Positions 21,632 to 23,658 of a stretch of 43,202 nt of DNA are shown piece after piece. The first letter of the stretch is position 1. Each line of letters opens with the position of its first letter. The notes under the pieces are model-generated. The model was not told where the DNA came from. It saw only the letters and a program-made list of their open reading frames with translations, and did not search any database. The stretch comes from a virus, in the IMG/VR virus record IMGVR_UViG_3300009788_000164, positions 1-43,202 of that record; one strand, given 5' to 3'. Position numbers and translations under genes: made by a program.

Positions 21632-22008
21632 TGGGTAGACTAATACCATATGACGACATCGTGCGTACACCTATACCTATGCCCGAAATGCCTAGAGTAG
21701 AATACATTGAAGGTGTAAATATTCCACCTAAGCGCCATTGGGGAGATAACCCTGGAGGCACAGGAAATAACATCTACTCGATCTGGGGTGAAGGATTTTC
21801 TGCTACAGGGCAACATGGTACTGCAAAGTCATTTGGTTGTTGGCGAGGAGACTCGTTTGAACATGCTTGTGACCAATGCTTTGATAATGAGTTCGATAAG
21901 AAATACTACAAGAAAGGAGAGAAGTCACTAATACTTAGACGGCGTTTATACTACTGGGGATGTGAGTTATTCCCAGAAGAGAGTAAAGCTAGACGCTCGT
22001 TTGGTTAA
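21631..22008 (+). CDS. Hypothetical protein
   Basis: 125 residues, start overlapping the previous stop (TGATG). Pro/Gly-rich N-terminal half (PPKRHWGDNPGGTGNNIYS), then CWRGDSFEHACDQCFDNEF and a basic helix. The Cys set C-x9-C-x2-C could bind metal. Not recognised. Confidence 0.5.
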   Translation: MGRLIPYDDIVRTPIPMPEMPRVEYIEGVNIPPKRHWGDNPGGTGNNIYSIWGEGFSATGQHGTAKSFGCWRGDSFEHACDQCFDNEFDKKYYKKGEKSLILRRRLYYWGCELFPEESKARRSFG

Positions 22009-22012
22009 GGTG

Positions 22013-22029
22013 CATTCACCGGATGAACG
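22013..22029 (+). repeat. Second copy of the TTCA-GGATGAACGCA element
   Basis: CATTCAC-CGG-ATGAACG, an imperfect version of the hairpin at 15489 with the following GCATCTAT matching GCAACTAT there. It lies 31 bp before the gene at 22061 and 4 bp after the previous stop. Confidence 0.4.
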
Positions 22030-22060
22030 CATCTATCATGACAGAAAGGAGGAATATCAC

Positions 22061-22465
22061 ATGCCAAAAGTATATGATTTCACAGTAGGTAAGAAAGACG
22101 AAGACGGTAACAAAGTGGACATCGGCACGTTTACTATCAATGGCCCTGAGTCCATTGAGGAATGTGTTGAGATGTACGGTGCGGACGTCGCGCTCAATAA
22201 CTGTATGCAGTCAGTTATCATCTCAGCTCAGGCTCTTGCTCGTAGGGTTGCTTCCAAAGAGTCCATTGAGAAGGTTCAGGAGACCCTCAACGCTTACAAG
22301 CCGAAGATTGGCGCCATTCGCGGCGGAACATCGCAATCTGCAATGGTAAAGCTGTTCAAGGACTTAAGTCCGGAAGACCAGGCGAAAGTGCTGGTAGACG
22401 CTGGCGTTACAATTCCTGGCGCAACTGCTCCAGCCGAAGCCACTGAGTCAGAAGCAGTAGCCTAG
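22061..22465 (+). CDS. Early protein sharing a C-terminal motif with 13057
   Basis: 134 residues from ATG at 22061 (AAAGGAGG 8 bases upstream; the longer frame back to 21962 overlaps the previous gene). Beta-rich first half (VDIGTFTINGPESIEECV), then helices and the segment FKDLSPEDQAKVLVDAG, close to FKKLSVEDQAKAMAALEAAG in the product at 13057, and an Ala/Glu tail. Last gene before the structured 380-bp gap. No family recognised. Confidence 0.65.
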   Translation: MPKVYDFTVGKKDEDGNKVDIGTFTINGPESIEECVEMYGADVALNNCMQSVIISAQALARRVASKESIEKVQETLNAYKPKIGAIRGGTSQSAMVKLFKDLSPEDQAKVLVDAGVTIPGATAPAEATESEAVA

Positions 22466-22845
22466 CCACCGATAGGTTACTGAATCCACGGGCTATCGAG
22501 ACGTTGTGTTAGGGCACACTACAGAGCCATCACTGACACAGCAGTATAGCCCACGGATGTGGGGAGACATCAAATCTGAACTATCTGTGATGTCTCCCCT
22601 ATAGGGTGCTCTCGGCTAACCACCGTTTGCATCCACTCCGTGTGTGGCGGGAGGGTGGAGGTCTGAAGGAAGGACTTCACCCTCCCAATTGATAACAAGC
22701 TGGAGTGGCTGAATAACTTAGCGTAGTAAGGCACTTCACCTTAATCAGGAGAAGGTACTAGCTAGTTGCGTGATGTGATTAGTTAGTTGCAGGTTTGAGT
22801 TGATTACTCCAATCCTGTCTCCAGCTTATAATAAAGGAGGTATAT
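22466..22845 (+). ncRNA. Structured gene-free region, candidate RNA element or origin
   Basis: 380 bp without a credible ORF but full of dyads. CGATAG/CTATCG at 22470/22493; ATCCACGGGCTAT/ATAGCCCACGGAT (22484-22496 with 22546-22558, two mismatches); a perfect 12-bp stem GGGGAGACATCA/TGATGTCTCCCC (22561-22572, 22588-22599); GGGAGGGTG/CACCCTCCC (22649-22657, 22678-22686), extendable; and a long-range stem AAGCTGGAG/CTCCAGCTT (22697-22705, 22819-22827). An 11-mer TAGYTAGTTGC repeats 21 bp apart (22759, 22780). None is followed by a T run. The outer stem ends 6 bases before the SD of the next gene, as in a riboswitch-like leader. An alternative pairing TGGAGT/ACTCCA (22701-22706, 22806-22811) excludes the outer stem. 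Confidence 0.55.
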
Positions 22846-23001
22846 GTGAGCTATTCAACCAAAGGTAAATGCTCCAAGTGCGCATCAGACAAGGGTGATA
22901 AATGTACTACATGGGATAAGCCATTCAGAGAACTCATCCCATCTCATATGAGCAAGACCTCATACCAATGTCATAAGTATAATAGACGGAGAGGTAAATA
23001 A
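22846..23001 (+). CDS. Small Cys-rich protein (GTG start)
   Basis: 51 residues from GTG at 22846; AAGGAGG ends 5 bases upstream, and the nearby ATG runs straight into a stop. C9, C12, C20 and C42 followed by HKY. The pattern C-x2-C-x7-C-x21-C-x2-aromatic is close to that of the product at 24575. The gene lies just behind the structured region, which could control its translation. Confidence 0.55.
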   Translation: MSYSTKGKCSKCASDKGDKCTTWDKPFRELIPSHMSKTSYQCHKYNRRRGK

Positions 23002-23153
23002 TGCCTCGCTATGAATACAAGTGTATTAAATGTGGCACTTTCGCTGTGCGCATAGTTAATATGACTAATCGTGATAAACAGGTCTGCATCCACTGTGATA
23101 GTAACATGGCTAGAGTGCCTTCAGTGCCTGCAAAGCCTAATGTAAAGTGGTAA
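23001..23153 (+). CDS. FmdB-like zinc-ribbon protein
   Basis: 50 residues starting MPRYEYKCIKCG, with a second pair CIHC (29-32) and a basic tail rich in Pro and Val. This matches the FmdB/CxxC_CXXC putative regulatory family (start P-x-Y-E-Y-x-C-x-x-C-G). Stop/start overlap TAATG with the previous gene. The cellular role of the family is poorly known. Confidence 0.7.
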   Translation: MPRYEYKCIKCGTFAVRIVNMTNRDKQVCIHCDSNMARVPSVPAKPNVKW

Positions 23154-23175
23154 CCCTAAACATTTGAGGTGCGAG

Positions 23176-23658
23176 ATGATTAAAGTTAACACAAACTCAT
23201 GGCATTACAGACTGTTGGATTTCGCAGGTATTAACCAACCAAGAACACTATGCACATACTTTTGGAGTGTAGTATTTGCTCCACTTGCTGTACTCGGTAT
23301 GAGCACTATTAAAGGATTCGGGTTCTTTTTTGGTCTAGATATAGGCTGTGAAGGAGATATATACATCGCACAGCGCCCTGCCTTTTGGACAACTTTGATA
23401 GTATGGATTGCTATGATCTACATTGTAGTCCCTTACGTATCACCTTTCATCGCAGACGAAGGATATCTTATAGTTTTACTTCTAGCATCTATGATTATAG
23501 AATTCGTCTGTGTAGTATGGGCTTTCAAAATGGTGCTTAGTATACTAGACAGGCGTGAGCAGCGGTCTGAAGGCGACGGATTCTTAACTTTAACTGGAAA
23601 GATGATTAGTGCTGTAAAGCAGAGAGTATGCCCACTAATCCACTATATTGAGGTATAA
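23176..23658 (+). CDS. Multi-pass membrane protein
   Basis: 160 residues from ATG at 23176 (GAGGTG upstream; the longer frame uses a TTG at 23164). It opens with VNTNSWHYRLLDFAGIN, a motif shared by a phage inner-membrane protein type, then has three or four membrane segments (WSVVFAPLAVLGMS, LIVWIAMIYIVVPYV, YLIVLLLASMIIEFVCVV). Possibly modifies the host envelope. Not assigned. Confidence 0.6.
   Translation: MIKVNTNSWHYRLLDFAGINQPRTLCTYFWSVVFAPLAVLGMSTIKGFGFFFGLDIGCEGDIYIAQRPAFWTTLIVWIAMIYIVVPYVSPFIADEGYLIVLLLASMIIEFVCVVWAFKMVLSILDRREQRSEGDGFLTLTGKMISAVKQRVCPLIHYIEV

Follow-up and report, generated by a model that had tools for sequence, protein, structure and literature searches.

What occupies 380 gene-free nucleotides in the early block of a virus genome? 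The question arises from IMGVR_UViG_3300009788_000164, a 43,202-base virus record that we analyzed over its whole length (the window; positions are 1-based along the whole record). Its genes are laid out as a structural block on the minus strand and an early block on the plus strand, the latter with exonuclease, ParB/methyltransferase, DNA polymerase, primase, and ligase genes. The element at 22466-22845 sits within this early block, and longer gaps on the plus strand are found only where the genes are on the minus strand. An initial annotation had called the stretch gene-free, which holds: it is bounded by an ORF stop at 22465 and a GTG start at 22846 and contains 12, 6, and 10 stop codons in its three plus-strand frames. 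That annotation also named a set of stems, some of them mutually exclusive, and proposed a new structured RNA, a riboswitch-like control, or a replication/packaging site. We located each of the named stems, confirming the observation as a whole, and its interpretation is partly supported.

Fold and setting of the element

The perfect 12-bp hairpin lies at 22561-22572/22588-22599 (100% paired), and the 9-bp hairpin described as extendable reaches 12 nt with 92% pairing at 22649-22660/22675-22686. The long-range stem is P1 of Table 1. Both competing partners of GGGCTATCG (22490-22498) are present, CGATAG at 22470 and ATAGCCC at 22546, and the minimum-free-energy (MFE) structure pairs it with the latter. 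CTGGAGT likewise has competing partners, and both the ensemble and the structure of the family favor CTCCAGCTT; the second innermost pair of P1 has a probability of 0.68-0.99 over 11 fold contexts. The MFE of the 380 nt was -149.6, compared with -115.5 ± 6.4 for shuffled sequences (z = -5.3, 0/100 shuffles), and the 5' domain, the P0 hairpin, and the manA-like part gave forward-strand z scores of -4.3, -4.5, and -4.6, respectively (each 0/100 shuffles). As the reverse complement was likewise more stable than its shuffles in most parts, energy alone does not prove which strand is the RNA.

Strong hairpins on both strands could also mark a DNA-level site, an origin or a packaging signal. However, the element contains no iterons or other repeats apart from the stems, and the GC skew turns near 14 kb and 36 kb, showing no local change; the kinship to RNA families and the leader position described below point the same way. 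The suggested replication/packaging site is thus unsupported, and we consider a DNA-level role extremely improbable.

Neither a sigma-70 promoter nor an intrinsic terminator was detected in 21900-23300. P1 ends 6 nt before the Shine-Dalgarno (SD) sequence AAGGAGG and 18 nt before the GTG start of the next ORF. As no promoter or terminator was recognized and an ORF starts this close to P1, a leader role is the simplest reading in the window. The 51-aa ORF that follows gave no Pfam family above the cut-off. The second ORF after the element (23001-23153) encodes a small zinc-ribbon protein (PF09723, 38.1 bits).

Table 1. Features of the element and of the start of the next gene
Feature	Position	Strand	Basis or remark
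5' domain: helix 22490-22496/22546-22552, inner helices, and the 12-bp hairpin	22466..22645	+	MFE, shuffles
P0 hairpin, directly 5' of the manA-like domain	22649..22686	+	z -4.5
P1 5' strand, acceptor-like; inner 7 bp GCUGGAG/CUCCAGC	22697..22705	+	9 bp, covariation
Core: UG, GCU/GGC, GAAUA, short hairpin 22716-22727, AA; read as a D-arm whose loop holds a hairpin	22706..22732	+	
P3, anticodon-arm-like: 22735-22740/22748-22753, one A-A mismatch, 7-nt loop	22735..22753	+	aligned pairs
P4, 13-bp hairpin, variable-arm-like	22757..22787	+	MFE; cmscan alignment to manA P4
P5, T-arm-like: GCAGG/CCUGU, loop U...AAU plus small inserted hairpin	22789..22818	+	
P1 3' strand, immediately after P5	22819..22827	+	9 bp, covariation
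SD AAGGAGG at 22834 and GTG start of the next ORF	22834..22848	+	
Next ORF, 51 aa	22846-23001	+	

Kinship with manA RNAs

At gathering scores, an Rfam scan gave no match in the window, ROOL included. With permissive filters, the manA model RF01745, which had not been preselected, matched the 3' part at 22689-22828 with 27.1 bits (E = 8.6e-7 across the whole record), below its curated gathering cut-off of 55.2 bits. In P1, the core, P3, and P5, 21 of the 22 scoreable pairs are standard in the window, and the core letters GUG-RCU-GAAUAA / UAA-GGY are found at 22705-22732. The 3' part (22649-22827) is a diverged manA relative. It shares with manA the core letters, P1, the order of P3 to P5, the adjacency of P5 and P1, and a 5' hairpin; besides the lower score, it differs in a very short core hairpin, an insert in the P5 loop, an additional 5' domain of 180 nt, and a phage that is not a T4-like cyanophage. 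The idea of a new structured RNA therefore survives in part: strong covariation in relatives, whose lack was to count against the initial proposal, supports a structured RNA, whereas the kinship of the 3' half to manA, a published riboswitch candidate, means that the element is not wholly new. According to PMC2864571, manA occurs in T4-like cyanophages and two gamma-proteobacteria as well as in marine metagenomes; PMC7779021, on Rfam 14, counts 48 significant pairs in the manA alignment after its correction.

The relatives were gathered by blastn similarity to one member for the cyanophage manA loci and by core patterns for further loci. From a 20-row alignment excluding the window, RNAalifold derived 29 pairs, 20 of them changed on both sides, and the covariance model built from these rows (R1) matched the window with 20.3 bits (E = 6.1e-6); elsewhere in the window it reached E = 0.33 at best. 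No second manA copy was found in the 5' half with R1 up to E 10, and the 5' domain (22466-22645) had no Rfam match at E ≤ 10. Over 47 chosen sources, R1 gave 44 matches at E ≤ 0.1. In 44 manA-like rows, 23 of the 29 pairs change on both sides; 94.1% of the cells are paired compared with 68.7% in shuffled data, and the covariation score is 0.479 compared with 0.130 for shuffled and 0.05-0.09 for slid alignments, differences that remain large even though an alignment fitted to a structure favors that structure.

The P1 sequences are wholly different between types and yet keep the same anchoring G. The helix ranges from 5 to 12 bp among types, L187 having 9 bp and both L066 and the second L208 copy having 12 bp; the 9 bp of the window gave P = 0.007, and the short helices (4-6 bp) of other types were individually not significant in this test. 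A convincing P1 was not found by the test in L185, L188, L189, L194, L205, and L206, of which L188, L194, and L205 are ROOL RNAs with the partner strand upstream, and L185 and L206 were retained in some pattern-locus counts.

Other routes to relatives yielded little. Comparison of the element with phages by blastn gave only chance-like matches of 26-34 nt in seven records, nine pattern stretches reached via the upstream protein P0001 were not confirmed, and the exonuclease led to none. One core-pattern set of 32 loci was mostly chance-like; two of its loci (L002 and L008) reached the manA cut-off, and two more (L013 and L023) were manA-like below it.

Comparison with class-II tRNAs and ROOL RNAs

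The conserved order of parts is P1, UG, RCU, GAAUA, hairpin, AA, RGY, P3, P4, P5, and, with no linker, P1 again. So arranged, manA-like RNAs look like class-II tRNAs. In tRNA numbering, we take UG to be positions 8-9, RCU/RGY to be 10-12/23-25, GA to be 13-14, and AA to be 21-22. On that numbering, all 43 rows that have letters there carry U8, G9, C11, G13, A14, A15, A21, A22, and G24 unchanged, a conservation that is partly inflated because many rows were fetched by patterns fixing some core letters; the cyanophage rows L082-L095 came via blastn. P5 has five pairs and reads GGU...A(N)YCC, as in a T-arm. With Leu-like class-II tRNAs the manA-like RNA of the window has in common the acceptor-like stem, UG 8-9, the D-stem pair C11-G24, G13/A22, A14, A21, a variable arm of the long kind, and a T-arm of 5 bp that adjoins the acceptor.

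There are differences as well. The manA-like RNA of the window has a hairpin in the D-loop and an insert in the T-loop; across the group, P1 is not fixed at the 7 bp of a tRNA. In the window, CCA is not encoded, UUAU following the 7-bp stem in place of a CCA end, and the loop UUAAUCA sits on a mismatched anticodon-like stem and offers no decoding anticodon. ARAGORN called no tRNA anywhere in the window, and at 22000-23200 the tRNA model of Rfam had no match up to E 10. Among the helices of the group P3 is the weakest, with pairing in 84% of cells, and in the window it can pair UCACC/GGAGA with one mismatch and a 7-nt loop; the D-stem pair of the core is not predicted by ViennaRNA alone (probability 0.03). 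By eye, a P0-type hairpin stands at the same place in most group members. Among the open-licence papers searched, we found none terming manA tRNA-like or tying it to ROOL, and the term tRNA-like does not occur in the available portion of PMC2864571.

Phages related to the window phage through their polymerase (80 loci and three phage records, 83 in total, 1.39 Mb) gave one real R1 match (L097; 23.7 bits, E = 1.4e-5); the polymerase of the L097 phage shares 48% identity with that of the window phage in the best segment. Its element, UGGCGGAAGCG...GCAGGUAUCGAAUCCUGC, has letters that we take to resemble tRNA-Leu. Run on 50 of the 83, the Rfam manA model had given no match, a false negative given the later R1 match in L097, and an exact-core regular expression over the 83 loci gave just two matches, both chance-like. 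A descriptor of D-arm letters, T-arm, and adjoining acceptor hit 5 of the 83 loci on the plus strand (L097, L099, L102, L129, and L163), with no hit on the minus strand or over 10 shuffles. A looser version hit 11 of the 83; each shuffle gave 0-1 hits and the minus strand gave none. Four of these 11 loci (L123, L124, L142, and L172) were unlike the others or ambiguous.

We read seven of the elements (L097, L099, L100, L102, L129, L157, and L163). By eye, all seven have an SD-like motif and a start within about 8-40 nt downstream, L099 being the weakest, and several have a hairpin within the D-loop. The alignment puts the window among the seven at both ends; the descriptor misses the window itself, where the T-loop carries an insert. 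ARAGORN called a tRNA in none of the seven, and of the four scanned with the Rfam tRNA model (L097, L099, L102, and L163) only L163 matched (30.3 bits). Against the tRNA-like reading, R1 had no match in the clearer tRNA-like relatives L099, L102, and L163, and when run unfiltered on L096, L098, and L099 it did not improve on E 0.1. Among the early genes of polymerase-related phages there are tRNA-Leu-like elements whose placement resembles that in the window. Such relatives within the same phage group, none of them called by ARAGORN, could also mean that the element is a phage tRNA-Leu gene in decay, one that has insertions and lacks a function of its own. The window, however, has kept all its helices, with 21 of 22 pairs, its inserts are base-paired too, and the position before the SD recurs in the seven relatives, which together make decay very improbable.

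The core pattern also retrieved ROOL RNAs (RF03087). Five of them (L050, L081, L188, L194, and L205) show the core loop of manA, GUG-RCU-GAAUA / AA-RGY, in swapped strand order. In the first four, the strand opposite GUG-RCU-GAAUA-A is U-AA-AGY and lies upstream; R matches Y in each, the pairing being ACU/AGU in L050 and GCU/AGC in L081, L188, and L194, the last two identical in sequence at the core. The likeness consists of a 5x2 internal loop GAAUA/AA closed by RCU/RGY, with GUG before it; apart from the strand order, ROOL differs in its length of about 600 nt, and it gave no Rfam match in the window at the gathering score or at E ≤ 10 in 22000-23200. The available text of PMC12286853 describes ROOL as an octameric cage and does not name manA. 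The solved ROOL structure could display the common core in three dimensions. A check of 6 GOLLD records, made without a positive control, showed the core in none.

Genomic contexts and possible roles

Of at least 120 pattern-fetched matches, 80 were taken in. The 95 cyanophage-type loci among the matches listed gave 79 distinct, usable ones; the 16 dropped were duplicates, too close to an end, or had an unrecognized RNA end. Among these listed matches, a sigma-70 promoter of at least 10/12 stood directly upstream in 73 of the 79 loci, compared with 17 of 395 random sites, a terminator was found within 75 nt downstream in 14 of the 79, compared with 7 of 395, and an open frame of at least 40 codons started within 250 nt in all 79 (median 45 nt). 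A tRNA comes immediately after the manA-like RNAs of L082 and L094; others lie inside tRNA islands (L186 with 12 tRNAs and L209 with 27) or near tRNA or tmRNA genes (L187, L183, and L199), one of these tRNA-island or tmRNA-linked loci having a permuted tmRNA, and in L088 an opposite-strand gene is next to the RNA. Several family members, with a terminator, tRNA, or opposite-strand gene downstream, are therefore not leaders. The promoter, terminator, ORF, and tRNA contexts indicate that manA-like RNAs are found at the start of transcripts, as leaders of genes, and sometimes on their own.

The same contexts, together with the core module common to ROOL and the structure of all 380 nt, would suit a stand-alone structured RNA that is cut from the operon transcript, 5' domain included, and acts in trans or as a particle in the manner of ROOL and GOLLD. 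For the window we consider this rather unlikely, as no promoter or terminator is recognized there and an SD and a start follow 6-18 nt past P1.

To our knowledge, manA, a candidate riboswitch since 2010, has been assigned neither a ligand nor a function since its description. A metabolite riboswitch, as proposed for manA in the available text of PMC2864571, would be consistent with a junction fold adjoining the SD and with CUCC at 22636-22639, which some fold contexts allow to pair with the SD. That pairing, however, is sensitive to the fold ends, for which reason we dropped SD sequestration as the main mechanism; the features downstream are unrelated across the family (talC, purL, hypothetical genes, tRNA), and the four terminators that we read (L084, L085, L086, and L092) lie after P1 and do not overlap it. 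With downstream genes varying and several family copies standing alone, a ligand switch is not favored, and we judge this form of the riboswitch-like control quite improbable.

We think it probable that the element is an early-operon leader with a manA-like, tRNA-like fold, whose handling in the manner of a precursor tRNA sets downstream expression. The fold would arise as the early operon is transcribed, the 3' ~180 nt of the element adopting a tRNA-like tertiary structure of P1 acceptor, UG linker, D-arm with a loop hairpin, anticodon-like arm, variable arm, and a T-arm stacked on P1. Host enzymes might then treat it like a precursor tRNA, perhaps with RNase P cutting before P1 and 3' trimming behind it, and the operon mRNA would be cut or capped immediately upstream of the SD, which could set the stability and translation of the downstream genes.

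For the family at large, chances appear even that manA RNAs are class-II tRNA-like RNAs with a D-loop hairpin, put by phages at transcript starts or before ribosome-binding sites, with the D-arm module strand-swapped in ROOL and with the window and L097 as intermediates. The same estimate covers jointly the view that steps between a tRNA-Leu-like and a manA-like leader are visible in the window and its relatives, chiefly L097. The tRNA-like reading would account for the invariant letters of manA, suggest RNase P, the CCA enzyme, a synthetase, and EF-Tu as candidate host partners, and make manA open to simple tests. It would also link three odd groups of phage RNAs: leaders, the RNAs of tRNA islands, and ornate forms like ROOL.

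Some manA-like RNAs depart from the common form or setting. Tandem pairs of cores occur in L040 (about 2028-2370), L047, and L208 (3277-3666). Matches in two contigs titled Candidatus Taylorbacteria (L066, 3884-4052; L074, 4386-4539) belong to longer elements of ~300 nt that are closed by P1 at their outer ends. In the contigs with L008 (1700-1869), L013, and L023 (364-535), genes follow TTTAWATA-like boxes that by eye resemble archaeal promoters; if they are such promoters, manA-like RNAs extend to archaeal viruses.
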